NCBI GenBank assembly: GCA_028707065.1
Contig: JAQTUZ010000009.1
Location: 1-48,615, forward strand
Origin: Patescibacteria group bacterium
Lineage (GTDB): Bacteria; Patescibacteriota; Patescibacteriia; Patescibacteriales; WJLG01
Length of the DNA: 48,615 bases
Reading direction: 5' to 3'
Below the pieces are notes generated by a model, which saw only the letters and a program-made list of their open reading frames with translations, had not been told where the DNA came from and ran no database searches. The first letter of the stretch is position 1. The number at the start of each line of letters is the position of its first letter. The translations under genes and the position numbers were made by a program. Of the stretch, positions 14,941 to 42,796 are shown piece by piece.

Positions 14941-15507
14941 ATGTTTTCACGATTCGTCCGTCTGGCTTCTGTCGTTTTCGTAACAGTCATTGCCGCCACC
15001 GCGTTTGTTTCCGGCCAGAGCGCCGCTCCTCAATCACCGGCATCTGCCAGGCCGGAAATCGCGCAGGCCACCGAACAACAGCCCGCGCCCGCGGCTGCTA
15101 TCCCCGCGCCCGCCACAACTGGGACCGAGCAATCGGCCAAAGTTGCCACGGCACCGGCGAAAAAATCGATCACCGACGATGCCATTGTCGATTCCATTCT
15201 TGAGTCCCTAAAAAACATTAAATCCGGGGATTCAGTGGATTACGACGTAGTAACAATAACTATCAAGCATCAACGTCAGACGACAACCAAATCAGTCGAC
15301 ACTAAGCAGCTGATCGCGGCCACGGACTACGGGTTGATAGCCACGCAAAACATAGTCACCGTAAAAGAAGGGCAGGTGCGGATTATTTCCATTGGCAACG
15401 TCGCCGGACAACCGATTTTAAAAATCAAAACAAAAAATTCGGGCGGCAAACCGCAAATGAGCCAAATCTACATTGGCGCGCCAGTGAACACTTTGCCGAA
15501 AAATTAA
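14941..15507 (+). CDS. Secreted protein of unknown function, Ala/Pro-rich linker plus C-terminal beta domain
   Basis: 188 residues. Signal peptide at residues 1-25 (hydrophobic core L-A-S-V-V-F-V-T-V-I-A-A-T-A, likely cut near V-S-G-Q). Residues about 27-75 are a low-complexity Ala/Pro/Gln/Thr linker. Residues about 78-188 form a compact domain with alternating Val/Ile strands (V-D-Y-D-V-V-T-I-T-I-K; Q-V-R-I-I-S-I-G-N-V). No Cys and no recognised family. It has its own promoter, strong Shine-Dalgarno and terminator. The next gene has a similar plan (signal peptide plus Ala/Pro linker), so the two may act together outside the membrane. Confidence 0.8.
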   Translation: MFSRFVRLASVVFVTVIAATAFVSGQSAAPQSPASARPEIAQATEQQPAPAAAIPAPATTGTEQSAKVATAPAKKSITDDAIVDSILESLKNIKSGDSVDYDVVTITIKHQRQTTTKSVDTKQLIAATDYGLIATQNIVTVKEGQVRIISIGNVAGQPILKIKTKNSGGKPQMSQIYIGAPVNTLPKN

Positions 15508-15530
15508 AAAAATATCGGCAAAAAATACCA

Positions 15531-15562
15531 AAAATCGTGATTTTTTCGGAAATCACGATTTT
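15531..15562 (+). terminator. Intrinsic terminator
   Basis: AAAATCGTGATTT / AAATCACGATTTT, a 13-bp stem with loop TTTCGG and a T tail. Follows the secreted protein gene. Confidence 0.9.
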
Positions 15563-15575
15563 TTAATTTCCACCA

Positions 15576-15604
15576 TTGACATTTTTTATATAATATGGTA
15601 AAGT
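15576..15604 (+). promoter_or_regulatory. Promoter and Shine-Dalgarno for the gene at 15662
   Basis: TTGACA, 17-bp spacer, TAAAGT at 15599-15604. GAGGAGG at 15651-15657 lies 4 bp before the ATG. Confidence 0.7.
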
Positions 15605-15661
15605 GAGCAAAACGTTCGCATATTCACAATTTTTTCTTTCACCTTTTCCAGAGGAGGAGTT

Positions 15662-16120
15662 ATGAGCAACAAACTGCTCAGGCTTTCGTTGTTGGCAGCC
15701 GTGGTCATTTTCGTGGTTCCGGCACTGGCACAACGTCATTTCAATATGGGCATCGGCGACCAGAAAAATCAGACCAAAGACACTGCCGCGGTGTCTTTGC
15801 CCGCTCCCGCACCCGCCCCGGTCTGGGTCATCATTGACACTTCCGGACGGGTCTTATCGGAAAAGTTCGATACCATAGTTGTTCGAATTCAGGTAAGAAA
15901 CGTCAAGCAGGCGATCCGCCCCCTTGATAAAAACAATCCCCAGGATAGCGCCGCTTACAATCAGGGATGCCGAGCCGCGCGGTTTGACGCGACCAGAACC
16001 GTAGTCGTCCAAACCTACATCAATAAAGACATCTACGGAAAATGGAGCAAAGTTCAAACCGGCCCCACCGTTTTAAGGGAAGACACAACCAATACCCCGA
16101 TACCGCCGGCAAAATACTGA
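15662..16120 (+). CDS. Small secreted protein of unknown function
   Basis: 152 residues. Signal peptide at residues 1-23 (L-L-R-L-S-L-L-A-A-V-V-I-F-V-V-P-A-L-A, cut after A-L-A). A short Ala/Pro linker lies at about 45-53 (P-A-P-A-P-A-P-V). The remaining domain begins V-W-V-I-I-D-T-S-G-R-V-L and holds one Cys, and the C-terminus is rich in Pro and Thr. No family recognised. Strong Shine-Dalgarno, own promoter, and the same island as the gene at 14941, whose architecture it shares. Confidence 0.78.
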   Translation: MSNKLLRLSLLAAVVIFVVPALAQRHFNMGIGDQKNQTKDTAAVSLPAPAPAPVWVIIDTSGRVLSEKFDTIVVRIQVRNVKQAIRPLDKNNPQDSAAYNQGCRAARFDATRTVVVQTYINKDIYGKWSKVQTGPTVLREDTTNTPIPPAKY

Positions 16121-16182
16121 TTTCAATCGTGTTATTCATGACAATTTCATTACCTTTTTTATTCAAACGAGAAAGGGTCGCC

Positions 16183-16314
16183 ATGAAGAAAAGAGTTGCC
16201 GCTTCCGTTGTCGTAATTTTCATCATTGTCTGGATCTTCCTTCCCAAAATAAAAAAGGCTCACCGCAATCGCGAGGCGGTGAAGATTCAAAAAAGGGTTC
16301 GCCAGTTTCGCTAA
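16183..16314 (+). CDS. Tiny membrane protein (43 residues)
   Basis: Starts at the ATG at 16183, preceded by GAAAGGG at 9 bp. M-K-K-R, then one transmembrane helix (V-A-A-S-V-V-V-I-F-I-I-V-W-I-F-L), then a Lys/Arg-rich cytosolic tail. A frame-compatible ATG at 16138 would add a hydrophobic segment. It follows the secreted-protein gene by 60 bp and ends before a strong terminator, so it is probably co-transcribed. Function unknown; it could be a membrane anchor or partner. Confidence 0.55.
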   Translation: MKKRVAASVVVIFIIVWIFLPKIKKAHRNREAVKIQKRVRQFR

Positions 16315-16343
16315 TCCCGCCAACTTCGGCAAAAACACTTATC

Positions 16344-16372
16344 CCCGCTTCACTTCGAAGCGGGATTTTTTT
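16344..16372 (+). terminator. Intrinsic terminator
   Basis: CCCGCTTC / GAAGCGGG with loop ACTTC, then ATTTTTTTA. Ends the plus-strand unit 15662-16314. Confidence 0.9.
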
Positions 16373-16388
16373 ATTTTTTCAAAAATAA

Positions 16389-16416
16389 AGCCCGCTGTTT
16401 TCCAAACCAGCGGGCT
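16389..16416 (-). terminator. Intrinsic terminator of the DAHP synthase gene
   Basis: AGCCCGCTG / CAGCGGGCT stem; in the minus direction it is followed by TTTATTTTT. Located 20 bp past the stop. Confidence 0.88.
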
Positions 16417-16436
16417 GATAATTGTTAAACAATGAT

Positions 16437-17618
16437 TTACCGCATCTTTTCGTAAGTCCAATCCAACACTTCTTCGGTTTCCGCGAAAGATAAGCATGAA
16501 TCCGTTACGGAGATTTCCGGATCCATTTCGGAAAAACGCTGTCCTTGATGTTTTTGCGCTCCCCCTTTCAAATATGATTCAAGCATCCCGCCAATAATCG
16601 CCGAATTTCCATCACAACGCTGTTGAACGACTGCTTTCCAGACATCGATCTGCCTTTTATGCTCCTTGAGGGAATTTCCATGGCTGGCGTCAACGACTAC
16701 TGCTGCCCGCAAACCTGCCTTCTTGTAGCACGCGATCGCCCGATCGATTTCTTCCGGATGATAATTGGTCCTGATCGCGCCGGAAAAGATATTCGCTGCC
16801 GCTTTGATTATCTGCTCGTCGACGTTTCCCTCGCGGAGTATTTTCTCCATCGCTTCGACTTCTCCGGCGCAATAATCGGATCTTTTGCCGCCGCGCAGGA
16901 TAAGGAACGTATCAAGATTGCCGGTCGCGTGAATTTCCGCCACCCGGCCGTTCAAAGCCGGACCCGGAAAGGCGCGCCCGCTTTTAGCGATGTATTTTAT
17001 CGCATTGACAGCCGAACCGATATCGCCGCTGGTGGCATTCTTGATGCCTACCGGCATTGACATTGCCGAAGCCATGCGCCGCAATGTCGTCGTTTCCGCG
17101 TTTCTGGCTCCCAGCCAGGCGGCCGAAAGCAAGTCGGAAAAATATTGTTCGCTGACCTGATCCAGCGCCTCCGCGGCGACCGGTAAGCCCAATTTTACTA
17201 TTTTCCACAGCAGATGCCGGCTCTTTTCCATGCTCATCGCCAAATTGCACGTACCGTCGCCCGTCCAGTCGTTAGCCGCCCCTTCCCAGCCGGTTTCAGT
17301 CCGCGGTTTTTCAAAGCAGAGACGGATGACCACGAAAATCTTGCTCTGGTATCTGTCAGCCAGCTTAAGCAAGCGTCCGGCATACTCCAATACCGCTGCT
17401 TCATTATGGACCGAGCAAGGTCCGACAATCGCCAAAAATCGCGGGTCGCGGCCATCAAGGATATTCTTGATGGTTTCCCGAAACCCCAAAATTTGCCGGT
17501 CCAAATCCGGATTCAGCGGATACTTTTTCCTTATTGCTCGCGGCGACGGCAGGATTTTCACTTCTTTTGTCCGCAAACCGTCCGTCGGGCTCCTGAAAAT
17601 CGAGACGAATCTGTTCAT
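16437..17618 (-). CDS. aroF: 3-deoxy-7-phosphoheptulonate (DAHP) synthase, class I (AroF/G/H type)
   Basis: 393 residues. Joins phosphoenolpyruvate and erythrose-4-phosphate in the first step of the shikimate route to Trp, Phe and Tyr. Visible: G-P-C-S-V-H with metal-ligand Cys68, F-E-K-P-R-T at 102-107, I-K-N-A-T-S-G, I-L-R-G-G-K, D-A-S-H-G-N (His ligand), G-G-M-L-E-S (Glu ligand) and S-V-T-D-S-C (Asp ligand), so all four metal ligands are kept. The N-terminal 60 residues correspond to the regulatory extension of the E. coli-type enzymes. The start at 17618 is fixed by GGGAGG 5 bp upstream. The 215-bp leader is an apparent attenuator. No other shikimate gene lies in the window; many Patescibacteria lack the pathway. 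Confidence 0.95.
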   Translation of the reverse strand: MNRFVSIFRSPTDGLRTKEVKILPSPRAIRKKYPLNPDLDRQILGFRETIKNILDGRDPRFLAIVGPCSVHNEAAVLEYAGRLLKLADRYQSKIFVVIRLCFEKPRTETGWEGAANDWTGDGTCNLAMSMEKSRHLLWKIVKLGLPVAAEALDQVSEQYFSDLLSAAWLGARNAETTTLRRMASAMSMPVGIKNATSGDIGSAVNAIKYIAKSGRAFPGPALNGRVAEIHATGNLDTFLILRGGKRSDYCAGEVEAMEKILREGNVDEQIIKAAANIFSGAIRTNYHPEEIDRAIACYKKAGLRAAVVVDASHGNSLKEHKRQIDVWKAVVQQRCDGNSAIIGGMLESYLKGGAQKHQGQRFSEMDPEISVTDSCLSFAETEEVLDWTYEKMR

Positions 17619-17682
17619 TAGTCCTCCCATAGTTGGAAAATAATGAGTAAACTTCAGTTTAACAATTTTTTTGTCAAAGAGC

Positions 17683-17818
17683 AAAAACAAACCGGCCTTC
17701 GCTTGAGGCGAAAGCCGGTTATTATATCAATTTACTGATTACTTCTTACTGATGATTGACACAATTAAAACCCAGCTTCGCCGTCGAGGTAAAGTAAAAG
17801 CTCCAGCTGGTTTTAATT
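17683..17818 (-). promoter_or_regulatory. Attenuator: four pairing segments upstream of DAHP synthase
   Basis: In RNA order: segment 1 at 17818-17805 pairs with segment 2 at 17778-17763 (AATTAAAACC core, 14 bp). Segment 2 (AAGCTGGGTT) can instead pair with the first part of segment 3 (AACCGGCTT at 17720-17712) with one bulge. Segment 3 (17720-17708) pairs with segment 4 (17702-17690) in a 13-bp stem with loop CTCAA, followed by TGTTTTT at 17689-17683: an intrinsic terminator before the structural gene. Segment 1 overlaps the aromatic codons of the leader peptide. This is the layout of a ribosome-stalling attenuator. Confidence 0.85.
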
Positions 17819-17832
17819 ATTAATTTTTCCAT
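17746..17832 (-). CDS. Leader peptide of the DAHP synthase attenuator (28 residues)
   Basis: ATG at 17832, TAA at 17748-17746. Residues 10-14 are Trp-Ser-Phe-Tyr-Phe (TGG AGC TTT TAC TTT at 17805-17791), all three products of the pathway in five codons; one more Phe follows at residue 22. The ATG coincides with the expected RNA start (about 7 bp past the -10), so translation would be leaderless. The stop lies between segments 2 and 3, so a non-stalled ribosome would cover or pass segment 2 and allow the terminator. Seen directly in sequence; function inferred from known trp/phe leaders. Confidence 0.8.
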   Translation of the reverse strand: MEKLIIKTSWSFYFTSTAKLGFNCVNHQ

Positions 17833-17838
17833 ATTATT

Positions 17839-17867
17839 ATATTATCTTATAACTAAAAAATTGTCAA
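17839..17867 (-). promoter_or_regulatory. Promoter of the DAHP synthase leader
   Basis: TTGACA at 17867-17862, 17-bp spacer, TAATAT at 17844-17839: a near-consensus sigma-70 promoter reading into the leader peptide. Confidence 0.85.
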
Positions 17868-17893
17868 TTACCCCTTATAATTTTCCCAAATTT

Positions 17894-17921
17894 AAAGCCC
17901 TACGATAAATTGTAGGGCTGT
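17894..17921 (-). terminator. Terminator of the short unit at 17.9-18.2 kb
   Basis: AGCCCTAC / GTAGGGCT with an 8-base loop, then TTTAAATTT in the minus direction. Confidence 0.8.
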
Positions 17922-18124
17922 GTTGTGTGCCAGGATAAATTTCTCCGGGGTCTCTTTAGGGCACGTAGACATGCCGGAGGGTGAACGATTTCTTCTTCGT
18001 CCCAGAATTCTTCTCGAACAACTGGGTCGAAGTCGCTTTTAGAAACCTTCCTAAGAACAACCAATGTCAGCGGCAGGGTGGAGCAAGAGATGCTCCTACA
18101 AGATGGTGTTTTCTGTCCAACCAT
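17900..18124 (-). CDS. Candidate small protein (74 residues), or part of an RNA gene
   Basis: Lies inside a self-contained unit with a promoter at 18265-18237 and a terminator at 17894-17921. The last 55 residues look protein-like (D-F-D-P-V-V-R-E-E-F-W-D-E-E-E, then a basic Pro/Arg stretch), but no ribosome site precedes the ATG. A second frame, 18213-18067, starts at a GTG with AGAAGGA 4 bp before it and codes for 48 residues with two Cys, overlapping this one out of frame. Options: two small genes, one frameshifted gene, or a noncoding RNA of about 330 nt. No family recognised. Confidence 0.35.
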   Translation of the reverse strand: MVGQKTPSCRSISCSTLPLTLVVLRKVSKSDFDPVVREEFWDEEEIVHPPACLRALKRPRRNLSWHTTQPYNLS

Positions 18125-18236
18125 TGGTTACCGAACAGGCAACCCATCTTATAATCATTAGATCGGTACTTCTTGCTGGTCCTCATTAGAGCTCGATTTG
18201 AGGGGCAATCCACCGTTCCTTCTTAATGATATTATC

Positions 18237-18265
18237 ATAGTAGCACGGATACAAAAAAATGTCAA
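18237..18265 (-). promoter_or_regulatory. Promoter of the short unit
   Basis: TTGACA at 18265-18260, 17-bp spacer, TACTAT at 18242-18237. Confidence 0.75.
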
Positions 18266-18401
18266 TGCCTTAAAACTAAAATGGTCGATACTTTAATATT
18301 TATTATTTAAAATTAGCTAAAAATATTAATAATTTCCCAAGCTTTGTACCATTTATATTAAGGAATTACCCTCCCCAAACCCCTCGCGCTTGCCCGCCTC
18401 G

Positions 18402-18425
18402 GGCGGGTTCGAATCCTTCCCGGAC
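18402..18425 (+). other. tRNA T-arm-like fragment, inverted relative to tRNA-Tyr
   Basis: GGGTTCGAATCCTTCCCGGA matches a T-arm plus acceptor strand. CGAATCCTTCCCGG is shared with the 3' end of the tRNA-Tyr gene 110 bp away on the other strand. No other tRNA parts are present, so it is a fragment. Confidence 0.5.
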
Positions 18426-18430
18426 AAAAC

Positions 18431-18449
18431 AAAAAAGCCCGAAAGGGCT
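18431..18449 (-). terminator. Terminator after tRNA-Tyr
   Basis: AGCCC-GAAA-GGGCT with an A run on the left, giving a T run in the minus direction; also T-rich on the right. Confidence 0.75.
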
Positions 18450-18463
18450 ATTTTATTTTTCCC

Positions 18464-18524
18464 GCCTTCGCTCGTCTTGGTGGGCATTGCCCACCGAAGC
18501 CGAGCTACGGCGAGGCGAAGGTGG
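18464..18524. repeat. Palindromic element overlapping the 3' end of tRNA-Tyr
   Basis: CCCGCCTTCGCTCG and CGAGGCGAAGGTGGG arms around GTGGGCATTGCCCAC; GAGCTACGGCGAGG resembles the GTAGCTTTGGCGGAG core of the element found in rplD, rplW and the ybaK-like gene. It starts directly at the tRNA end. Confidence 0.5.
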
Positions 18525-18605
18525 GCCGGGAAGGATTCGGACCTTCGAAGGCGTAAAGCCAGCAGATTTACAGTCTGCCCCAGTTGACCGCTTTGGTACC
18601 GACCC
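18522..18605 (-). tRNA. tRNA-Tyr (GTA)
   Basis: 84 nt class II tRNA. Acceptor GGGTCGG pairs with CCGGCCC (one G-T pair). Anticodon GTA at 18571-18569 in the arm CAGACTGTAAATCTG. A long variable arm follows, then T-arm with GGTCCGAATCC. The encoded tail is ACCT, so CCA is completed after transcription. Confidence 0.95.
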
Positions 18606-18607
18606 AG

Positions 18608-19045
18608 GTATTAACAATTAACTATTAACATTTTACAATTAACTAATTAAGATAGCAATGATTTTTTAAAACCTCCAAGTTGTCTTGATATTGATTCGCA
18701 TCTGTTTATCATTATTTGAAAAATTTCACTGTTTATCAAATTTGTTTTAAACATCGCATCAAGACAAGCAGCCACTTCATTCGCCGAACCCAATGATTTT
18801 TCCAAATATCTCGCGAATTCCTTATCTGACTTTACCGCGGATCCTTCGGCAATATTTAAAATAATTGAGAGACCGGCTCTCCTTGCCTGATCCTTAATAA
18901 CAGAATCGCTCAATCGATCAAGGATGCTCAATAGAGAAATATAAAATTTTACAGCATCTTTATAGACAGAAAAATCAAAAAATCGATAAGTTCTCATAAC
19001 CCTCCTTAATGAGTTAATTGTTAACTGTTAAAGGTTAACTGTCAT
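18608..19045. repeat. Inverted word-repeat arms (GTTAACT words) flanking the four-helix-bundle gene
   Basis: Left arm 18608-18650 (TTAACAATTAAC, TATTAAC, ACAATTAACT, AATTAA) and right arm 19008-19045 (GAGTTAATT, GTTAACT, GTTAAAG, GTTAACT) are roughly reverse complements. The gene at 18647-18997 occupies the loop, and its stop lies in the left arm. Confidence 0.7.
18647..18997 (-). CDS. Four-helix-bundle protein, 23S rRNA intervening-sequence (S23/IVP) family
   Basis: 116 residues, the family's usual size. R-F-F-D-F-S-V-Y-K-D-A-V-K-F-Y at the start, and the core A-G-L-S-I-I-L-N-I-A-E-G-S-A with F-A-R-Y-L-E-K-S-L-G-S-A-N-E-V identify it. The family was first found in intervening sequences of bacterial 23S rRNA genes; related bundle proteins act as accessory factors of retroelements. 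Its function is not established. Here it sits between two tRNA genes and between inverted arms, like an IVS cassette. It has a strong Shine-Dalgarno (AAGGAGGG, 2 bp spacer to the ATG), unusual for this genome. Confidence 0.88.
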   Translation of the reverse strand: MRTYRFFDFSVYKDAVKFYISLLSILDRLSDSVIKDQARRAGLSIILNIAEGSAVKSDKEFARYLEKSLGSANEVAACLDAMFKTNLINSEIFQIMINRCESISRQLGGFKKSLLS

Positions 19046-19051
19046 TACCTG

Positions 19052-19124
19052 AGCCGTTGTCGGGAATCGGACCCGAGACCCCCTCCTTACCATGGAGGTG
19101 CTCTACCAGCTGAGCTACAACGGC
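19052..19124 (-). tRNA. tRNA-Thr (GGT)
   Basis: 73 nt. Acceptor GCCGTTG/CAACGGC, D-arm AGCTCAGCTGGTAGAGC, anticodon arm CCTCC-ATGGTAA-GGAGG with GGT as anticodon, T-arm CGGGTCCGATTCCCG. CCA is not encoded. Confidence 0.95.
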
Positions 19125-19247
19125 CTTCTCAATTTTCGAAGTACGATTTTCTATTTTCGTTTTTTTCCAAGCCTCTTACTAAAAATGCCGCCGAAAAGCG
19201 GCCAAAAATCTATTGATTTTTACTATACGTCCTCATTAACAAAAAGG

Positions 19248-19787
19248 TTAGAAATCGAACTCTCCCTTCACTCTGTCTTTCTCATTTCTTTCAACTGTAT
19301 CCTGATATCTTTTTATTGCTATTTCAGCGGTTGTAACCCATCCGCTTTGACTTGCGATATGGCTAAATCCGTATTTCTCCATTTCATTAGCCGCAAGTTG
19401 TAACATTTTTAATTCATTAGTAATATTAGGGTTTTTTTGCAGAGTGCCGATCTTACTAAAATCCGGCTTAAAAGAAGCTATATTACCATCACTGTCGAAA
19501 AAATAAAACTTATTATTGTTTTCCCAAAAATGCCCTTTAGCATTCTCTAGGCTTTTAGATTCTCCTTTATTAAGGGTATCTTTGGGGCAGGCAATCTCTT
19601 TGTGCAGTCTTATCCAGGCCGCGACATTAGGGACCCATTCGCCTTCGTGTTCTTTTTCTAAATTTTCCGCCTGTTCAGGAGTAACGCCTGTAATGGCATA
19701 ATCAGCTCCGCCTTTGATTAATTCCGCCGCCGCCTCTCTTCTGGTTTTATCCAAATCTTCACCTAACATGTTAGGTTCTTTTTCCAT
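19248..19787 (-). CDS. Hypothetical soluble protein
   Basis: 179 residues; an alternative ATG seven codons in (M-L-G-E-D) is possible. Charged, mostly helical, no signal peptide, no membrane segment, one Cys. Contains W-V-P-N-V-A-A-W-I-R-L-H-K-E-I and a small beta part, F-Y-F-F-D-S-D-G-N-I-A-S-F. No family recognised. It stands alone between tRNA-Thr and the TPR gene, with no obvious operon partner. Confidence 0.65.
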   Translation of the reverse strand: MEKEPNMLGEDLDKTRREAAAELIKGGADYAITGVTPEQAENLEKEHEGEWVPNVAAWIRLHKEIACPKDTLNKGESKSLENAKGHFWENNNKFYFFDSDGNIASFKPDFSKIGTLQKNPNITNELKMLQLAANEMEKYGFSHIASQSGWVTTAEIAIKRYQDTVERNEKDRVKGEFDF

Positions 19788-19859
19788 AAATTTATTAACT
19801 TTTCTGCCAAACGGGAATTAATCCTGATTTAGCGAAAGTTATTTAATTGATGTCATTAA

Positions 19860-20648
19860 TCACTCCAGTTGATCGATTTGTCCCTTAAATTCCGCTAATT
19901 TGCCGTTTTCCGGATTAACTGCGGTTAATTTATCAAAGGCGTCCAGAGCGGCGATTTTATCTCTATTCATTATACTTATTTCCAAAAGCGAGTCAAGATA
20001 ACGCGGGTTGTTCGGCGCTAATTTGGCCGCCATTTTGATGGTCTCCAAGGAACTCGCTGCTTCGCCCGTATCGCGATAAATGGCCGCCAGGTCATAATAA
20101 ATTTCCGCTTGCTGGTCCGACTCTTCGTTGCCCAAAAGTTTCAAAACATGGACAAAAGCCTGTTTCCCTTCTTCGTATTTTTTATTGGCCGCGTAAAGAT
20201 TGCCCAAGACGATGAAAGCTTCCGCGGACCTGGGTTCCAATTCGATTATCTTGATCAAATTAGCCTCTTTATCGGCAAAATTTTCCCGGTCATCCAGAGC
20301 GGAATTTTTGGCGAGCAGCCCATCGATCATCGTCTGTTTGTCTTCGGGAGGAAGAGCGGACGGACGGCTGTAATTCTTTTTGGCCTCCTGCAATTTACGC
20401 TGGATGAATTTGAATAGCGCGCCGATCCCGCCGCCGAGAAAGCTAAAAAACTTACCCAGACGAACCTTCCATTTGGCCATGCTTTTTTGCATCCGGCCGG
20501 TAATAATCTGCTCTTTGAAACGCGCTTCCTTTTCCGCCGGCATATTTTCCACGTCAATATTGGCCAGGGCCGGAAATTTCCGCACGATGACGACAATAAT
20601 AATGAAGAGACTGAGGCAAATTAGAATTAGAGGGATGATATTATACAT
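19860..20648 (-). CDS. Membrane-anchored TPR protein
   Basis: 262 residues from the ATG at 20648; the 38 residues upstream in the open frame only translate a repeat arm. One N-terminal transmembrane helix at residues 4-24. A basic linker (M-A-K-W-K-V-R-L-G-K) is followed by three to four TPR-like helix pairs from about 120 to the end (E-A-F-I-V-L-G-N-L-Y-A-A-N-K-K-Y-E-E-G; A-E-I-Y-Y-D-L-A-A-I-Y-R-D-T-G). TPR domains bind protein partners; the partner here is unknown. Next upstream gene is tpiA (120 bp away). Confidence 0.8.
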   Translation of the reverse strand: MYNIIPLILICLSLFIIIVVIVRKFPALANIDVENMPAEKEARFKEQIITGRMQKSMAKWKVRLGKFFSFLGGGIGALFKFIQRKLQEAKKNYSRPSALPPEDKQTMIDGLLAKNSALDDRENFADKEANLIKIIELEPRSAEAFIVLGNLYAANKKYEEGKQAFVHVLKLLGNEESDQQAEIYYDLAAIYRDTGEAASSLETIKMAAKLAPNNPRYLDSLLEISIMNRDKIAALDAFDKLTAVNPENGKLAEFKGQIDQLE

Positions 20649-34114: not shown

Positions 34115-35374
34115 CTACATTCCTTCGTACTCCCGCATCGTCAACTGCGCTTCGATCTGTTTGACCATATCGATCACTACGGCGACCACGATCAAAATGC
34201 TGGTACCGCCGATCGCCAGTGAACCGATATTAGTGAAGGCTTTGATGATCAGGGGCAAGACGGCGATCAAGCCCAAAAATAAGGCGCCGACTAAAATTAT
34301 CTTATAAGTCGTATTAGCCAGATATTCCTGCGTATGCAATCCCGGGCGAATCCCGGGGATAAAAGCCCCCTGCTTCTGTAAATTTTCGGCGATCCGGTCC
34401 GGATGGAAAATAACTTCGGTATAAAAATAGGTGAAAGCAAAAACCAAAACAAAATACATAATGCCGTAGATCAGCTGGTTGTTCCAAGCTTGAATGATCC
34501 ATTCGGCAAAATTAGCAATCCATTCGGTCCGAGCCTTAACAAAAAATTGCGCGATCATTTGCGGGAAAAGGATCACGGAAATAGCGAAGATGATCGGGAT
34601 GACGCCGCCCATATTAACGCGAAGCGGCAAATGAGTGGTGGTGCCGCCGAAAGTCCGGTTGCCGCGGATCTGGCGGGCATGCTGGACCGGAATATTTCGC
34701 TGGCCCTCGTTGATAATAACAATGCCGATGACGGTGATCACGGCCACAATCACAAAAGCTAAAATAGTGAAAAGTTTGGAAGGGTCGTAAACGCTGAAAG
34801 TCTGCATTACGCTTTGGGGCAAGTCGGCGACGATACCGGCAAAGATCATCATCGAGATGCCATTGCCGATCTTTTTCTCGCTGATCAACTCGCCAAGCCA
34901 CATCAAAAAAATAGTGCCGGAAGAGGTTACCAGCATGATCGAAAGAATATCAAAAGCGCTGACATCTCCCAAATATTGCCGTAGCATGGCAACCATGCCA
35001 TAAGATTGGAGCATGGCTAAAGGAACGGTCAGCCAGCGGGTCCACATCGTAATCTTCTGGCGGCCAACCTCGTCTTTCTGCATTTCTTCCAATGACGGGA
35101 CGATCATGGCCAAAAGCTGGAAAATAATCGAGGAAGTGATATAAGGGCCAACGCCCATCAAAACTACGGAAAAATTGCTCATTCCTCCGCCGGAAAATAA
35201 ATTCAAAAGTCCCAGGGCCTGGCTGGAAGAAAATAAATTTTGCATGGCAGCCACGTCAACGCCGGGAATCGGAATATGCGCGACAAAACGATAAATCGCC
35301 AATAAACCCAAAACAAAAAGAATATTGTTCCTCAAATCGCGGGCTTTCCAAATTTTCTCAACTTTATCCCACAT
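34115..35374 (-). CDS. secY: Protein translocase subunit SecY
   Basis: 419 residues with ten hydrophobic segments. Channel of the Sec system, moving proteins out through the membrane. Family marks: H-I-P-I-P-G-V-D at about 33-40 (start of the plug region), G-I-M-Y-F-V-L-V-F-A-F-T-Y-F-Y and R-P-G-L-H-T-Q-E-Y-L near 335-345. Complete; slightly shorter than E. coli SecY (443). Last gene of the cluster, ended by a terminator. Confidence 0.97.
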   Translation of the reverse strand: MWDKVEKIWKARDLRNNILFVLGLLAIYRFVAHIPIPGVDVAAMQNLFSSSQALGLLNLFSGGGMSNFSVVLMGVGPYITSSIIFQLLAMIVPSLEEMQKDEVGRQKITMWTRWLTVPLAMLQSYGMVAMLRQYLGDVSAFDILSIMLVTSSGTIFLMWLGELISEKKIGNGISMMIFAGIVADLPQSVMQTFSVYDPSKLFTILAFVIVAVITVIGIVIINEGQRNIPVQHARQIRGNRTFGGTTTHLPLRVNMGGVIPIIFAISVILFPQMIAQFFVKARTEWIANFAEWIIQAWNNQLIYGIMYFVLVFAFTYFYTEVIFHPDRIAENLQKQGAFIPGIRPGLHTQEYLANTTYKIILVGALFLGLIAVLPLIIKAFTNIGSLAIGGTSILIVVAVVIDMVKQIEAQLTMREYEGM

Positions 35375-35376
35375 AG

Positions 35377-35456
35377 ATCATGGAGCATGAGAGCATAGAG
35401 CATAGAGCATGAAGTCGATTCAGAACTGCTCTTTGTTCTTTGCTCTATGTTCTAAA
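35377..35456. repeat. Word-repeat hairpin (AGAGCAT family)
   Basis: Left arm 35377-35412 (GGAGCAT, GAGAGCAT, AGAGCAT, AGAGCAT), right arm 35423-35456 (TGCTCTT, TGTTCTT, TGCTCTA, TGTTC). Between rplO and secY. Confidence 0.88.
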
Positions 35457-35465
35457 TATCCAATA

Positions 35466-35882
35466 CTACTTTTTAAGTCCAGCCGCAATCGATTGATTGA
35501 GCTTTATCGCTTTGTCGAATTCAATCTTCACTTCCAATTTCTCCTTACCTAAAACTTTCACGGGCTTTTGCGCGTCAGCAATCAAACCTTTGGCAAACAA
35601 AGTCGCCACCGAGACCGTCTCGCCGTCCTTGAAATTTTTATTGATTACCGCGACCTTAACCACTTGATTTTTCGGCGCGAGCGAGCGGAAGCCGCCGATC
35701 TTCGGCGTCTGTAAAATATGCGGGCGCATACCCAAGCGCTTTAAACCGGTCACGCCGGAACGGGAATTCTGGCCCTTCTGCCCCTTGCAACAATAAGTGC
35801 CGTGGCCGGAACCATTGCCCCTGCCCACGCGCTTGATCTTTTTCTGCCCCCTTTTAGCTTTAATATTATTAAGAGATAACAT
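35466..35882 (-). CDS. rplO: Ribosomal protein L15 (uL15)
   Basis: 138 residues, near usual. N-terminal R-V-G-R-G-N-G-S-G-H-G-T-Y-C-C-K-G-Q-K-G-Q is the conserved Gly-rich rRNA-binding tail; C-terminal V-K-V-L-G-K-E-K-L. The only space between it and rpsE is 42 bp, so rpmD (L30) is absent. Confidence 0.96.
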   Translation of the reverse strand: MLSLNNIKAKRGQKKIKRVGRGNGSGHGTYCCKGQKGQNSRSGVTGLKRLGMRPHILQTPKIGGFRSLAPKNQVVKVAVINKNFKDGETVSVATLFAKGLIADAQKPVKVLGKEKLEVKIEFDKAIKLNQSIAAGLKK

Positions 35883-35883
35883 A

Positions 35884-35946
35884 TTTGGAATATGGAATTT
35901 GGAATATGGAATTTCCCAAATTTTTTACTTTTTACTTATTACTTCT
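35884..35946. repeat. GAATATG/GAATTTG words followed by TTACTTATTACTT words
   Basis: 35884-35915: four 7-bp words GAATATG/GAATTTG. 35917-35946: ACTTTTTACTTATTACTT. Read on the minus strand the second part gives GTAATAAGTAAAAAGTAA, which encodes the final V-I-S-K-K and stop of rpsE. Confidence 0.8.
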
Positions 35947-36617
35947 GCCTTCTTATTTTCAGTCTTATTATTATTTTCAACTCTCTTCAAGCTCTTCAAA
36001 GCTTCAATCGTGCAGGCCGCATTACTTAATTTGCTTTTGGAACCCAGGATCTTGGAAGTGATATTCTTGACTCCGGCCAATTCCAAAATAATTCTCACCA
36101 CGCCGCCGGCGATAACGCCCTTGCCTTTGGCGGCCGGCTTGAACAGGATCTTGGCGGCGCAATACTTATTATACACCTGGTGCGGAATAGTATCATTAAC
36201 CAAGGGTACGTCGATAATTTCTTTTCTGGCTTGATTGACCGCTTTCTTTACGGCCGCGGTAACGTCCGCGCCCTTGCCCACGCCGGTGCCGATCTTGCCC
36301 TTATGATCGCCGATCGCCACGCAAACGCGGAAACGCATTCTTTTGCCGCCGGCCATAACGCGCGTCACCCGGGCAATATCCAAAATTCTCTCGTCAAATT
36401 CGTCTCTTTTTTCCAATTTCAAGCCGCCCTTCTTAAAACCGAAGGTTTTTCGCGAGCCCTTTCCTTTTTCCACCGCAATCCCCTTGCCTGCCGGACCTTT
36501 TACTTCTAACGGTGCGGCCGGCCCGACGATTTCTTCAACCTCTTCAGGGACGATCGCTTCCGGTTCGATAGCAACCGCTTCCGGGACCTCTTCTATTTTC
36601 TTATCTTCTGTTATCAT
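35925..36617 (-). CDS. rpsE: Ribosomal protein S5 (uS5) with acidic N-terminal extension
   Basis: 230 residues against about 165 usual. Residues 1-45 are a Glu/Pro/Ala-rich extension and about 45-70 are Lys/Gly-rich. Then the S5 domain: V-T-R-V-M-A-G-G-K-R-M-R-F, G-D-H-K-G-K-I-G-T-G-V-G-K-G, and the second fold V-I-A-G-G-V-V-R. Part of the decoding-site proofreading region. The C-terminus ends in repeat-encoded V-I-S-K-K. Confidence 0.96.
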   Translation of the reverse strand: MITEDKKIEEVPEAVAIEPEAIVPEEVEEIVGPAAPLEVKGPAGKGIAVEKGKGSRKTFGFKKGGLKLEKRDEFDERILDIARVTRVMAGGKRMRFRVCVAIGDHKGKIGTGVGKGADVTAAVKKAVNQARKEIIDVPLVNDTIPHQVYNKYCAAKILFKPAAKGKGVIAGGVVRIILELAGVKNITSKILGSKSKLSNAACTIEALKSLKRVENNNKTENKKAEVISKK

Positions 36618-36627
36618 ATAAATAATT

Positions 36628-36692
36628 TTGTTCTATGTTCCATGCTCTTTGCTCTTTTTAATTAAGATCATAGATCAAAGAGCAAAGATCAG
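36628..36692. repeat. Word-repeat hairpin (TTGTTCTA/TGCTCTT family)
   Basis: Left arm 36628-36656, right arm 36664-36692 (AAGATCATAGATCAAAGAGC). Very short loop. Between rplR and rpsE. Confidence 0.85.
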
Positions 36693-36706
36693 TTTTATTT
36701 AAATTA

Positions 36707-37063
36707 CTAAAACTTTAATCCTCCCGCTCTCGCCGCCTCGGCCGCCGCCTTGATCCGGCCGTGAAACTTATAAAAACTCTTATCAAAAACTACTTGGCTG
36801 ATTTTCTTGGCGACGGCTTTCTTGGCCAAAAGTTTACCCAATTCAGCCGCCATCTCGATCTTGTTCAATTTTTTGATTTTAATTTCCCGGACTCCCGCAC
36901 TAACCAAAGTTTTACCAGCTTCATCGTCGATCAACTGTAAAAACATGCCGCGATTGGAACGAAAAACCGAAAAACGCGGGCACTCCGCCGTGCCTTCGAT
37001 CTTGGCGCGAATTCTCGCATGCCGTCTGATTCTCTTTGTTTGTCTCACTATCTGTCTATTCAT
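36707..37063 (-). CDS. rplR: Ribosomal protein L18 (uL18)
   Basis: 118 residues, usual length. R-I-R-R-H-A-R-I-R-A-K-I-E-G-T near the start, P-R-F-S-V-F-R-S-N-R, and the end G-R-I-K-A-A-A-E-A-A-R-A-G-G-L-K-F are family marks. Binds 5S rRNA with L5. Confidence 0.97.
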   Translation of the reverse strand: MNRQIVRQTKRIRRHARIRAKIEGTAECPRFSVFRSNRGMFLQLIDDEAGKTLVSAGVREIKIKKLNKIEMAAELGKLLAKKAVAKKISQVVFDKSFYKFHGRIKAAAEAARAGGLKF

Positions 37064-37067
37064 AAAT

Positions 37068-37096
37068 TTATTCTTACTTCTAACTTCTTACTTCAA
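37068..37096. repeat. TTACTTC words between rplF and rplR
   Basis: TTCTTAC, TTCTAAC, TTCTTAC, TTCAATT: four 7-bp direct words. No strong inverted arm. Confidence 0.6.
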
Positions 37097-37642
37097 TTAT
37101 TCGCTCTTTACTGCCGCCTTGCCTTCCTTTCTCCTGATCACTTCATCGACATATTTAATCCCCTTACCCTTGTAAGGTTCGGGTTTTTTGATATTTCTGA
37201 TCTGATTGGCGATCTCCCCCAGCAATTCCTTGTCCGCGCTGCTCACCGTAATGACATTTTCCTCGACTTTTGCGTCAATCGCGGCCGGCAATTCGAAAAC
37301 GACCGGATGGGAATAACCGACTTCAAAAGTTAATTTTTTGCCCGAGCCTTGAACCTTGAAACCAACGCCGTTGATTTCCAATTTTTTCTCGAAGCCGTCT
37401 TTGACGCCAATCACCATATTTCTGATCAAATTCCAATACAGGCCCCAGAGCGCATTTTCTCTTTTATTTTTAGGGTTAATGATACTGACGTAAATTTCGC
37501 CATTCTCCGCTTTTACGGCAATCTGCGGAATCAATTTTCTTTTCAGTTCGCCCTTCGGGCCTTTCACGGTCACTAAATCGCCTTCAATCTTCACTTGAAC
37601 GTCAGCCGGGATCTTAATTGGTAATTTTCCTAAACGGGACAT
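37097..37642 (-). CDS. rplF: Ribosomal protein L6 (uL6)
   Basis: 181 residues, usual length. Two L6 folds; signature at the end P-E-P-Y-K-G-K-G-I-K-Y. Start M-S-R-L-G-K-L-P-I-K-I-P. Located near the GTPase centre of the large subunit. Confidence 0.97.
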   Translation of the reverse strand: MSRLGKLPIKIPADVQVKIEGDLVTVKGPKGELKRKLIPQIAVKAENGEIYVSIINPKNKRENALWGLYWNLIRNMVIGVKDGFEKKLEINGVGFKVQGSGKKLTFEVGYSHPVVFELPAAIDAKVEENVITVSSADKELLGEIANQIRNIKKPEPYKGKGIKYVDEVIRRKEGKAAVKSE

Positions 37643-37650
37643 ACATTTAT

Positions 37651-37711
37651 TTTAATCCCCTCTCGGGAGGGGTGCCGCGATTGAAATGAGCGGCGGGGTG
37701 GGTTTTCAGAA
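37651..37711. repeat. Palindromic element, 61 bp, copy A
   Basis: TTTAATCCCCTCTCGGGAGG then GGTGCCGCGATTGAAATGAG and a G/T-rich tail. One mismatch against 38491-38551. CCCCTC/GAGGGG hairpin. Between rpsH and rplF. Confidence 0.88.
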
Positions 37712-37753
37712 ATTGGGGATTAAACCACTATTTAAATAATTATTCTTCAATTC

Positions 37754-38170
37754 TTAATAGATTTCGCAAAGCACTTCTCCGCCGATCTTCTGTTTCTTGG
37801 CTTCTTTGGCGGTCATCAAGCCCCGGGAGGTGGAAACAATAGCCGTGCCCATGCCGTTCAAAACCACCGGCATCTTATCTTTGCCGGCATAAACGCGCAA
37901 ACCCGGTTTGCTGACCCGCTGAATCGAGCTGATCGCCGGACGGCCGCTTTTCTTATATTTCAAAACTATCTTCAATTCCTTGAAGGCTCCATCAGCTTTG
38001 GCTTTGGCGTTTTCGGCGCCAAGAATCTCGAACTTCTGAATCCAGTTCTCGCTTTCCAGTATCTTAGCGATCTCTTGCTTGATCTTGCTCGACGGCAAAG
38101 AGAGCTCGCTAATTCCGGCAGCGGCCGCGTTCCTGATTCTTGTTAGCATATCTCCTATTGGATCGGTCAT
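37754..38170 (-). CDS. rpsH: Ribosomal protein S8 (uS8)
   Basis: 138 residues. Start T-D-P-I-G-D-M-L-T-R-I-R-N-A; C-terminal signature S-T-S-R-G-L-M-T-A-K-E-A and G-G-E-V-L-C. Binds the centre of 16S rRNA and organises the platform. Confidence 0.97.
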   Translation of the reverse strand: MTDPIGDMLTRIRNAAAAGISELSLPSSKIKQEIAKILESENWIQKFEILGAENAKAKADGAFKELKIVLKYKKSGRPAISSIQRVSKPGLRVYAGKDKMPVVLNGMGTAIVSTSRGLMTAKEAKKQKIGGEVLCEIY

Positions 38171-38190
38171 ATGTGTTTGAAAAAAATGAT

Positions 38191-38268
38191 TCTGTTATTG
38201 TTCTTTGCTCTTTGCTCTCTGTTCTTTCGAAAAAACAACCGAACAAAGATCAAAGAACAAAGAGCAGT
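38191..38268. repeat. Word-repeat hairpin (TTGCTCTTTGTTC family)
   Basis: Left arm 38191-38228, right arm 38239-38268 (CGAACAAAGATCAAAGAACA). Between rpsN and rpsH. Confidence 0.87.
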
Positions 38269-38295
38269 TATAAATATATTATGTATTTTACCCGC

Positions 38296-38481
38296 CTACC
38301 ACGAGGCTCTTTTTATTCCCGGCAATTCTCCCTTTTCAGCCAACTCGCGAAAGCAAATGCGGCACAATTCAAAATCACGCATATAGCCGTGATTGCGGCC
38401 GCAGCGCCAGCACCGTCTGATCTTCCGGGTGGAAAATTTCGGTTTTCTTTTCGCTTTGACTATTAATGCTGTTCGAGCCAT
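38296..38481 (-). CDS. rpsN: Ribosomal protein S14, zinc type (uS14)
   Basis: 61 residues, the short form. Zinc site C-W-R-C-G-R-N-H-G and [10 protein letters not shown], with C-x2-C...C-x2-C. C-terminal G-I-K-R-A-S-W is the family end. Part of the small-subunit head. Confidence 0.97.
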
Positions 38482-38490
38482 ATCCTTGAA

Positions 38491-38551
38491 TTTAATCCCC
38501 TCTTGGGAGGGGTGCCGCGATTGAAATGAGCGGCGGGGTGGGTTTTCAGAA
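38491..38551. repeat. Palindromic element, 61 bp, copy B
   Basis: Same as 37651-37711 with C to T at the fourth base of the hairpin loop side. Starts 10 bp before rpsN. The two copies are about 840 bp apart. Confidence 0.88.
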
Positions 38552-38589
38552 CTATTTTTTTCTTTAAAAATTAATAAATGATAACTGTT

Positions 38590-39129
38590 TTATTCTTTTC
38601 TCAAAGGGAATTTCAATAATCTGAATAATTCCAATCCTGCTTGCGCGTTTTTAGCGGTTGTCGCCAGACAAATCTCCAAGCCGTGCAGTTTTTCCAAATC
38701 CCTGACTTCAATTTCGGCAAAAGGCATAATGTCCTTGAAACCGATAGTCAATCCGCCATTGCGATCAATCGATTTTGGATCAACTCCGCGAAAATCGCGG
38801 ACGCGGGGCAAATAGACATTAACCAGCCTTTCCACGAAATCGTACATTCTTTTACCGCGCAAAGTAACCGACGCGCCAATAATCATTCCTTCTTTGATCT
38901 TAAAAGCAGAAACGGCTTTTTTGGCTTTATTCAACATCGGTTTCTGCCCGGCAATGATCGTCAGATTCTCTTCCACGATCTTGATCAATTCCTTATCTTT
39001 AACACTGCGTCCGAAGCCAACGTTAATTACGACCTTTGCCAATCGAGGCGCGGCCAGATCATTCCCGATGTTCAACCGTTTTTTTAATTCCGGCAGGATT
39101 TCTTTTTTGTAGTATTCTTTCAATCGCAT
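38590..39129 (-). CDS. rplE: Ribosomal protein L5 (uL5)
   Basis: 179 residues from the ATG at 39129; the 23 codons before it encode repeat arm. L-K-E-Y-Y-K-K-E-I-L-P-E-L start, V-V-I-N-V-G-F-G-R-S motif, G-Q-K-P-M-L-N-K-A-K-K, F-K-I-K-E-G. Binds 5S rRNA and contacts the P-site tRNA. Confidence 0.97.
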   Translation of the reverse strand: MRLKEYYKKEILPELKKRLNIGNDLAAPRLAKVVINVGFGRSVKDKELIKIVEENLTIIAGQKPMLNKAKKAVSAFKIKEGMIIGASVTLRGKRMYDFVERLVNVYLPRVRDFRGVDPKSIDRNGGLTIGFKDIMPFAEIEVRDLEKLHGLEICLATTAKNAQAGLELFRLLKFPLRKE

Positions 39130-39155
39130 AAATGTTTGAAATTCTTTAAATTGAT

Positions 39156-39219
39156 TTGTTCTTTGCTCTTTGTTCTCTGTTCTTTTAAGAAAGAACAAGA
39201 AACAAGGAACAGAGAACAG
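39156..39219. repeat. Word-repeat hairpin (TTGTTCTTTGCTC family)
   Basis: Left arm 39156-39184, right arm 39189-39219, almost no loop. Between rplE and rplX. Confidence 0.87.
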
Positions 39220-39234
39220 TTTATATGACGTAAT

Positions 39235-39570
39235 CTATTCAATTGATTTATTACACTTCTTGCAAATTCTCACTTTTTTCTTGATCTTTTTCCCTTCGCC
39301 AACCGTTTCTTCGATGAACTGATAGCCGACCCTGGTGGCCTTGCCGCAATTCGGACAAAGCAAAGCCAAATTAGTGATCGACAGCGGAGCGGGAAATTCA
39401 ATTCTCTGCCCTTTCTCGCCTTGTTTTCTCGGACGCAAATGCTTGATCAAAAGATTCAACCCCTCAATACTGGCTTTATTGGTGTCAACAAAGATTTGCA
39501 GGACTTTTCCTTCCTTGCCCTTGTCTTTGCCGGCCATTATTCTCACTTTGTCATTCTTCTTTATTTTCAT
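39235..39570 (-). CDS. rplX: Ribosomal protein L24 (uL24) with C-terminal zinc ribbon
   Basis: 111 residues. KOW motif K-V-R-I-M-A-G-K-D-K-G-K-E-G-K-V. The C-terminal part carries L-C-P-N-C-G-K and I-C-K-K-C-N, a C-x2-C...C-x2-C zinc ribbon seen in some lineages. Starts large-subunit assembly at the 5' end of 23S rRNA. Confidence 0.96.
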   Translation of the reverse strand: MKIKKNDKVRIMAGKDKGKEGKVLQIFVDTNKASIEGLNLLIKHLRPRKQGEKGQRIEFPAPLSITNLALLCPNCGKATRVGYQFIEETVGEGKKIKKKVRICKKCNKSIE

Positions 39571-39603
39571 ACGATATTCGTTAACGGGATATAGTAATTT
39601 TTA

Positions 39604-39700
39604 TTGTAATACTAATCCACGAATACATACTAATATGACGAATAATTATTTAACAAGCATTCGTTATATTAGTATGTATTCGTATGACATTAGCATTACC
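39604..39700. repeat. Word-repeat hairpin (ACGAATACATACTAAT family)
   Basis: Left arm 39604-39645, right arm 39657-39700. The right arm is nearly the same as the right arm at 42850-42892 (TTCGTTATATTAGTATGTAT). Confidence 0.88.
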
Positions 39701-39709
39701 TGTGATAAT

Positions 39710-40081
39710 TTATAAAACTTCAGGAGCCAAAGAGGCGATCTTGGCAAAACCCTTTCTTCTGACTTCGCGGGCAATAGGACCGAAAATTCTCGTTCCCTTG
39801 GGTTCGCCTTTATCCGCATCAACGATAACACAAGCATTCTCGTCAAAACGCAGACAAGTGCCGTCTTTTCTCTTGATCTCTTTTTTAGTTCTGACAACAA
39901 CCGCCTTGACGACGTCGCTTTTCTTAACCGGCGCGTGCGGAATCGCTTCCTTGACCGCGCAAGTTATAATATCGCCGACCGTGGCATATCTTTTGCCGTA
40001 AGTTCCGACAACATGAATACACTCGGCCAATTTGGCGCCGGTATTGTCAGCTACCCTTAATTGTGTCCCAACCTGAATCAT
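39710..40081 (-). CDS. rplN: Ribosomal protein L14 (uL14)
   Basis: 123 residues, usual length. Start [16 protein letters not shown]; middle [23 protein letters not shown]. Forms part of the inter-subunit bridge and the RsfS site. Confidence 0.97.
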
Positions 40082-40088
40082 ATTAATC

Positions 40089-40191
40089 TGATGCGAATGA
40101 CGCGAATTAGTCGCGAATGCTGCGAATCAATGCGAATAATTTATTAGCATTCATTTGCGGCATTCGCGCTCATTAGCGGATTCGCATCATG
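40089..40191. repeat. Word-repeat hairpin (GCGAATGA/GCGAATTA family)
   Basis: Left arm 40089-40140 in 8-9 bp words around GCGAAT; right arm 40145-40191 around ATTCGC. Loop only about 5 bp. Between rpsQ and rplN. Confidence 0.9.
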
Positions 40192-40192
40192 T

Positions 40193-40441
40193 TTATTTAG
40201 ATAAAACTCGCCACTTTTTGTCTTTACTTAACGGGCGACATTCGATAAATTCAACCTTATCCCCTTCCTTGTACTGATTATTTTCATCGTGAACCTTATA
40301 TTTTTTGGAGATGAAATAATTCTTTTTATATTTTTGGTCGCGCTTGTGGGTGATCACTTGGACCGAGATGGTTTTATCCATCTTATCGCTGGTAACTGTT
40401 CCGACAAACTTTCTTTTGCTGATTTTTTTATCTTTATTCAT
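40193..40441 (-). CDS. rpsQ: Ribosomal protein S17 (uS17)
   Basis: 82 residues from the ATG at 40441; the longer ORF start translates repeat DNA. F-V-G-T-V-T-S-D-K-M-D-K-T-I-S-V-Q near the start, V-E-F-I-E-C-R-P-L-S-K-D-K near the end. Binds 16S rRNA in the body. Confidence 0.97.
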   Translation of the reverse strand: MNKDKKISKRKFVGTVTSDKMDKTISVQVITHKRDQKYKKNYFISKKYKVHDENNQYKEGDKVEFIECRPLSKDKKWRVLSK

Positions 40442-40456
40442 ACGATTATATATATT

Positions 40457-40556
40457 TGTTGATTTGAATGTCATTTGTAGATTTGAATTTCGGATCCAAA
40501 CTAATTACTTTTGATTCAAAATTCAAATTTACAAATCTGCTCAAATCTACGAATGA
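40457..40556. repeat. Word-repeat hairpin (GATTTGAAT/CATTTGTA family)
   Basis: Left arm 40457-40490, right arm 40511-40556 (CAAATTTACAAATCTGCTCA). Between rpmC and rpsQ. Confidence 0.8.
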
Positions 40557-40750
40557 TTTATTGTTTTCTTGTTCAAATTAAGCAAAGTCAAAACATTGGC
40601 GATAACGCTTCTCGCCACTCTGATCTCGCGGACGTTTTTTAATTGTTTATTGGCATCCTTAAAACGGGCTGATCTTAATTTTTCCCGATACTCGGCTAAG
40701 ATCGCCTGCAATTCCTTTTCAGTTTTTTTGGCTAATTCTTTAAACTCCAT
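40547..40750 (-). CDS. rpmC: Ribosomal protein L29 (uL29)
   Basis: 67 residues from the ATG at 40750. Helical hairpin: E-L-A-K-K-T-E-K-E-L-Q-A-I-L, then V-R-E-I-R-V-A-R-S-V-I-A-N-V-L-T (R-K-x-I-A-R family motif variant). Near the polypeptide exit. The last residue region touches the neighbouring repeat. Confidence 0.95.
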   Translation of the reverse strand: MEFKELAKKTEKELQAILAEYREKLRSARFKDANKQLKNVREIRVARSVIANVLTLLNLNKKTINHS

Positions 40751-40758
40751 ATTGTAAT

Positions 40759-40859
40759 TGATGCTAATCCGCAAATTGATGCGAATGCTGCGAATCAATG
40801 CGAATAACCTATTAGCATTCATTAGCGGCATTCGCGCCCATTAGCGGATTCGCATCATA
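40759..40859. repeat. Word-repeat hairpin (GCGAATG family)
   Basis: Left arm 40759-40807, right arm 40811-40859, loop about 3 bp. Shares GCGAATGCTGCGAATCAATG with the copy at 40089. Confidence 0.9.
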
Positions 40860-40864
40860 TTTTT

Positions 40865-41269: not shown

Positions 41270-41281
41270 CAACATACCTTA

Positions 41282-41389
41282 TGTAATTTGTAGATTTGGA
41301 TGTCATTCGTAGATTTGGATTATCACCTGAAATTAATTATTATCAGATTATAATCCAAATCTACGAATTGTATCCTAATCTACGAATAG
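41282..41389. repeat. Word-repeat hairpin (GTAGATTTGGAT family)
   Basis: Left arm 41282-41321 (GTAGATTTGGA, GTCATTC, GTAGATTTGGA), right arm 41350-41389 (ATCCAAATCTACGAATTGTA). Confidence 0.85.
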
Positions 41390-41398
41390 TTTTGATAT

Positions 41399-42246: not shown

Positions 42247-42251
42247 GTTCT

Positions 42252-42791: not shown

Positions 42792-42796
42792 ATCGG

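Follow-up and report, generated by a model that had tools for sequence, protein, structure and literature searches.

A predicted aromatic-codon attenuator upstream of a DAHP synthase gene in Patescibacteria

DAHP synthase and its leader region

The DNA analysed here (the window) is a stretch of 48,615 nucleotides from a Patescibacteria group bacterium. A single gene on its minus strand (17618–16437) encodes a type I DAHP synthase of the AroF/G/H subfamily with 393 amino acids. The protein matched TIGR00034 with 325.6 bits, above the cut-off of 173.2, and had relatives in the PDB at 2.5e-74. Alignments revealed that the motifs GPCS, EKPRT, GAR, KN, LRGG, SH, ES and TD of E. coli AroG, which we take to be the metal and substrate residues, were retained. 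About 36 extra residues near positions 258–293, absent from the relatives, are located between LRGGK and the helix before the VDxSH motif, where the flanking stretch looks partly duplicated. When genome contigs were searched with this DAHP synthase as the single query no relative was found, and an alignment-based search gave 80 loci, all with 35–40% identity to it and none labelled Patescibacteria.

The same contig contains the S10/spc ribosomal operon and SecY (34115–46463). The S5 gene is followed by L15 after 42 nt, leaving no room for L30. The absence of L30 is a marker of Patescibacteria, and the earlier impression of a Patescibacteria-like genome fits this arrangement. Contamination by another organism was considered and rejected on the grounds of the ribosomal operon on the contig and a tetranucleotide profile resembling the rest of the genome. 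The stretch containing DAHP synthase scored lower in tetranucleotide similarity (0.59) than 7-kb pieces elsewhere (0.68–0.84), so the gene may have been acquired from outside.

The region from 17867 to 17618 on the minus strand contains its parts in the order given by a preliminary description, which had proposed a ribosome-stalling attenuator. The promoter (17867–17839), assigned by a 10/12 consensus match alone, consists of TTGACA (17867–17862), a 17-nt spacer and TAATAT (17844–17839). The leader ORF MEKLIIKTSWSFYFTSTAKLGFNCVNHQ (17832–17746) has 28 codons and no Shine-Dalgarno sequence, with its ATG 6 nt 3′ of the −10 hexamer. The codons Trp10, Ser11, Phe12, Tyr13 and Phe14 (17805–17791) are the putative regulatory codons, to which the stall simulation described below was applied. 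When the complete window leader is folded at minimum energy, segment 1 (17820–17805) is the 5′ arm and segment 2 (17777–17761) the 3′ arm of hairpin 1:2. Segment 2 also gives the 5′ arm of an antiterminator 2:3 (GACGGCGAAGCTGG, 17785–17772), the 3′ arm of which was located in segment 3 by duplex search (CCGGCTTTCGCCTC, 17718–17705). The intrinsic terminator 3:4 (17720–17690) has 13 perfect base pairs, 8 of them G-C, and a CTCAA loop followed by TGTTTTT; no other terminator scored higher among the leader-plus-terminator matches listed for the window together with 420 kb from elsewhere in its genome. The Shine-Dalgarno sequence GGGAGG (17628–17623) precedes the DAHP synthase ATG at 17618.

The near-consensus promoter, the leader ORF with its Trp-Ser-Phe-Tyr-Phe codons, the strong ribosome site and the terminator of the preliminary description were all recovered when the sequence was re-read. 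Its 1:2 stem and 2:3 alternative are likewise present with revised dimensions, the former having 16 bp with one bulged base rather than 14 bp, and the latter, whose extent had been underestimated at 9 bp, having 13 bp with two bulges. Just upstream of the promoter lies a near-perfect inverted repeat AGCCCTACAATTTATCGTAGGGCT (17896–17919) that is terminator-like on both strands, and further out two tRNA genes (18522–18605 and 19052–19124) flank a gene for a 23S rRNA-intervening-sequence-type protein (18647–18997).

Predicted folding and simulated ribosome stalling

RNA folding had been proposed earlier as a check. The leader RNA as a whole folded with −61.3 kcal/mol, far better than its shuffles, which averaged −41.9 kcal/mol (z = −4.76) and of which 0 of 200 were as good. 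The best 2:3 duplex gave −20.6 kcal/mol (p = 0.001, 1000 dinucleotide shuffles), compared to −22.1 kcal/mol for terminator 3:4, and because this duplex extends over 13 bp nearly all of segment 3 is common to the two structures. The window leader therefore has the mutually exclusive 1:2, 2:3 and 3:4 hairpins of trp-type attenuation, with 3:4 as the intrinsic terminator, and it shares with that type a short ORF with regulatory codons upstream of a gene for the synthesis of its own amino acids.

Ribosome stalling was modelled by placing a ribosome on each aromatic codon and cutting the RNA at its leading edge, a treatment that leaves out kinetics and pairing across the ribosome. For a stall at Trp10, Phe12, Tyr13 or Phe14 the predicted pairing of segment 3 with segment 2 in the nascent RNA was 0.86, whereas with the ribosome at Phe22 or the stop codon it was 0.00. 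The calculation therefore predicts that a stall frees segment 2 and that passage to the stop codon does not. Eight other leaders, described below, gave predicted 2:3 pairing of about 0.6–0.9 at most aromatic codons before segment 2, and across all nine the value fell to 0.00–0.37 with the ribosome at the stop codon. The same calculation on E. coli trpL as a control gave 0.62 at Trp10/11 and 0.01 at the stop. In five modelled leaders of one family (f168) the antiterminator prevailed even at equilibrium for some stall positions. The full-length window leader always preferred the terminator (P = 0.96–0.97), so that antitermination would have to be under kinetic control, which the calculation also implies for E. 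coli trpL. In the nascent window RNA without a ribosome, 2:3 was predicted to be preferred over 1:2 at equilibrium (0.84), and low basal read-through would therefore depend on 1:2 forming first.

The recurrence of such leaders, the excess of 2:3 pairing over shuffles and the likeness of the stall simulation to that of E. coli trpL argue strongly for ribosome-mediated attenuation. The leader is very probably a transcription attenuator that would tie the expression of DAHP synthase to the charged state of tRNA-Phe, tRNA-Tyr and probably tRNA-Trp. The transcript would start at the leader ATG or a few bases before it, and the ORF would be translated without a Shine-Dalgarno sequence. With aromatic tRNAs charged, the ribosome would pass through segment 2 to the stop codon and block 2:3, hairpin 1:2 would re-form behind it and terminator 3:4 would follow, ending transcription near 17683 as judged from folding. 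When charging drops, the ribosome would stall at codons 10–14 and cover segment 1, leaving segment 2 free; 2:3 would then form before segment 4 is made, the terminator would be pre-empted and the polymerase would enter the gene. We infer that a shortage of any one of Phe, Tyr and Trp would trigger the switch, which would state what these uncultured cells sense, namely a shortage of charged aromatic tRNAs.

Leaders in other Patescibacteria and alternative explanations

DAHP synthase was rare in the Patescibacteria sample at the thresholds used, being present in 9 of 381 genomes of the class and 10 of 380 of the phylum. An F/Y/W-rich leader with a terminator was observed at 11 of the 25 phylum DAHP-synthase loci examined; the remaining 14 had no leader in the stretch read, several of them lying behind other pathway genes. 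Homologous leaders lacking both the aromatic codons and the alternative stems had been named in the preliminary description as evidence that would count against it. That comparison was run, and both features recur at the 11 loci. Leaders are located upstream of DAHP synthase in G024 (MTYKTTQRTNFYFSFFWAFQRRSVCCGVLTT), G005 (MNYKTIQQSNFYFSFWSFSQRSFRCGVLIT) and G128 (MHYAHANFFGFTYFTDQAGQTV), and family f168 comprises those of G555 (MTHSGIFFGAYWYPFSAGKVLLRLS), G813 (MVSRSYAFGFWFFAFMAGKGRA), G847 (MAQRQSYFYGFFFTPYLAGKEPYDLK), G807 (MVYSTLNYGAYTFSFTAEGVCVRD) and G710 (MTSNMFFNGYWSFAFCARTVL). In G844 a B-type leader, as in family f168, is followed by a 103-aa ORF and then DAHP synthase. In G845 (L152 9194–10800) the leader MPVQTFTFGFYAFPFSAGQEPMCLN is followed by prephenate dehydratase, then by a small ORF without a Pfam match and by DAHP synthase. 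Two genomes, G844 (L153 10300–11400) and G847 (L151 6110–6900), have tandem leaders, with the B-type before DAHP synthase or its operon and an A-type further upstream, before a small gene without an assigned family.

An automatic rule was applied to the same genomes, with an ORF of 10–40 codons containing at least 4 F/Y/W in 9 residues and a terminator 5–60 nt after the ORF stop and at most 120 nt from the gene. It matched 8 of 25 phylum DAHP-synthase genes compared to 4 of 496 other genes, with a Fisher p of 4e-9 that is optimistic because the rule was set after some leaders had been seen. The rule missed G128, and one of its four control matches was the real leader of G845. A Fisher value of 7.8e-13 was set aside, as it covered only 11 loci, most of them chosen because a leader had already been seen.

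The 2:3 pairing exceeded shuffles in 8 of 9 leaders (p 0.001–0.03) of unrelated sequence, with a combined p of 2e-10 for the nine and 1e-8 without the window leader; the 2:3 pairing of the G128 leader was weak (p = 0.45). The distance from stop codon to terminator was 24–32 nt in all nine. Leaders could be aligned only within one family, being too divergent between lineages, across which aromatic runs are kept and little other sequence. Third codon positions accounted for 11 of 18 differences between closely related leaders (p = 0.014), a value that is only indicative since the pairs share one sequence and that no more than suggests translation of the leader ORFs.

The −10 hexamer is 6 nt from the ATG in the window leader and 10–12 nt in the G128 and f168 leaders (by eye for the A-type leaders of G844 and G847). 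The promoters of these leaders have spacers of 16–17 nt, and a 5′ UTR of about 0–6 nt without a Shine-Dalgarno sequence is predicted. In G024 and G005 the distance from TATAAT to ATG is 24 nt by eye. The 6-nt distance in the window suggests that its leader ORF may be leaderless or nearly so, and the sequences favour initiation with almost no 5′ UTR as the probable norm among these leaders. The ilvBNC leader peptide of C. glutamicum is made without a ribosome binding site, according to the title of Morbach et al. (2000) as cited in PMC4046766, and so gives a precedent for an attenuator ORF lacking a Shine-Dalgarno sequence, as in the window leader. It belongs to another phylum and responds to branched-chain amino acids, while the window leader has aromatic codons. 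Leaders with almost no 5′ UTR may offer a way to test leaderless initiation in Patescibacteria.

Three other explanations were weighed against the attenuator. The terminator could be a plain constitutive one, or the end-of-transcript signal of an upstream transcript, preceded by a chance ORF, with the DAHP synthase promoter located 3′ of it. Short aromatic-rich frames with some hairpin are indeed not rare, as a loose ORF-plus-hairpin scan, rejected as evidence by itself, gave 18 matches with a downstream gene per 420 kb, and a perfect TTGACA also occurs after the terminator at 17677–17672. However, no promoter-like site was found on the minus strand downstream of the terminator, while the promoter that was found lies exactly before the leader ORF. 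The stricter rule reduces the chance rate to 4 of 496 against 8 of 25 for DAHP synthase, and both the 2:3 alternative and the stop-to-terminator spacing recur, making this explanation very unlikely.

An antiterminator/terminator pair alone would equally suit another signal, such as an aromatic metabolite arresting the nascent peptide in a TnaC-like manner, an RNA-binding protein, a T-box or a riboswitch. This is at least as improbable, as the recurring feature is the aromatic codons and not a conserved peptide or RNA motif, and a search of window positions 15000–20000 with the Rfam 15 covariance models gave no T-box, riboswitch, Trp_leader or Phe_leader match at E up to 10. That the ORF encodes a functional small protein, with regulation of DAHP synthase incidental, is hardly credible: one pair of related genomes does have an identical leader peptide with only synonymous changes, but between lineages conservation is limited to the aromatic cluster, the overlap with segment 2 and the spacing to the terminator.

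Known systems and metabolic context

The closest precedent for the proposed attenuator is aroR of C. glutamicum, in which a Phe-Tyr-Phe leader peptide is described as controlling aroF by ribosome-mediated attenuation (Neshat et al. 2014, as cited in PMC11802643; Mentz et al. 2013, PMC4046766), with a response to Phe and not Tyr according to PMC11802643. Like aroR-aroF, the window has an adjacent Phe-Tyr-Phe leader before a DAHP synthase gene, and its Phe/Tyr-rich leader and terminator lie directly before a synthase of the AroF/G/H type; the comparison extends to the leader and gene and not to the RNA segments. C. glutamicum belongs to another phylum, and unlike aroR the window leader has a Trp codon besides those for Phe and Tyr. 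The pheL-pheA system of E. coli, mentioned in PMC11802643, uses a Phe-rich leader to attenuate an aromatic pathway gene. It resembles the window in its leader but controls chorismate mutase-prephenate dehydratase, and the window has no Phe_leader match; the G845 leader, located before prephenate dehydratase, is functionally nearer to it than the window leader.

The trpL-trpEDCBA leader of E. coli has regulatory codons in segment 1, the same three alternative hairpins and the same folding behaviour as the window leader, but only one regulating amino acid, where the window leader has three kinds of aromatic codon. The trpL stop codon lies ahead of segment 2 or in its first part. The window ORF instead traverses segment 2, with its stop codon 25 nt 5′ of the terminator, and there is no Rfam Trp_leader match. 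The trp and phe leaders, given as models in the preliminary description, are thus supported as to mechanism, while aroR-aroF is nearer as precedent and makes the novelty smaller than had been implied. The accompanying view that such attenuation is little described in this phylum is in keeping with the open-access literature, in which no paper relevantly joining leader-peptide attenuation with Patescibacteria or CPR was found, itself weak evidence of being undescribed; the kind is known from aroR. What appears new is the recurrence in Patescibacteria, the near-leaderless leader ORFs, the tandem leaders and the apparently orphan first enzyme. The leaders indicate that trp-type attenuation is in use in Patescibacteria, whose genomes are small and for which few regulatory systems have been described.

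The automatic rule matched 8 of 76 DAHP-synthase loci of other phyla, and 7 were convincing by eye: Planctomycetota L022, Deltaproteobacteria L042, Desulfobacteraceae L071, Comamonadaceae L056, L067 and L089, and Rhodococcus L075. At L056 the ORF reported by the rule was not the best frame, a better one being obtained by direct reading, and the L087 match is probably chance, as it resembles the final part of a gene for a dehydrogenase. In a tree of 36 DAHP synthases, built without C. glutamicum, the leader label had to change 7 times, and at least 3 of these changes were forced by well-supported branches. The leader-bearing Patescibacteria synthases were placed in two distant clades, with that of the window on a long branch whose position is uncertain. 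The tree is compatible with several gains of the leader as well as with its repeated loss, and the pattern suggests more than one origin or acquisition of the switch before DAHP synthase.

Pathway enzymes were counted in nine leader genomes, G000 (that of the window), G005, G024, G128, G555, G710, G807, G813 and G847, leaving aside G845 and G844. None of the 9 gave a match to chorismate synthase (PF01264), compared to 14 of 14 control genomes and 18 of 287 phylum genomes. As the leader genomes are 92–99% complete, one such absence carries little weight and nine carry more. DHQ synthase was undetected in 8 of the 9, being present only in G000, and chorismate-binding enzymes were detected only in G128 and G847. 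The enzyme under the aromatic-starvation switch therefore appears to be an orphan first enzyme. The earlier statement that starvation opens transcription of the first shikimate enzyme is supported as regards control of DAHP synthase, while an opening of the shikimate pathway as physiology is made doubtful by the chorismate synthase count. It is conceivable, though rather unlikely, that these cells have lost the rest of the pathway and yet induce DAHP synthase when starved of aromatic amino acids. The product of the enzyme would then be used by a partner cell, by an unknown enzyme or in a salvage route, and not for chorismate synthesis in the same cell. With chorismate synthase apparently lacking, the question arises of the source of aromatic amino acids in these presumed epibionts.

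Prephenate dehydratase was detected in G000, G024 and G128. In G000, where TrpE was undetected and EPSP synthase detected, the prephenate dehydratase domain is part of a 566-aa fusion (L143 7711–9411; C1 82710–84410) whose other half is prephenate dehydrogenase by eye. The fusion gene is preceded by a class IV aminotransferase and is divergent from EPSP synthase. In G555 (L147 8474–9634) a class I/II aminotransferase follows DAHP synthase after approximately 20 nt on the same strand.
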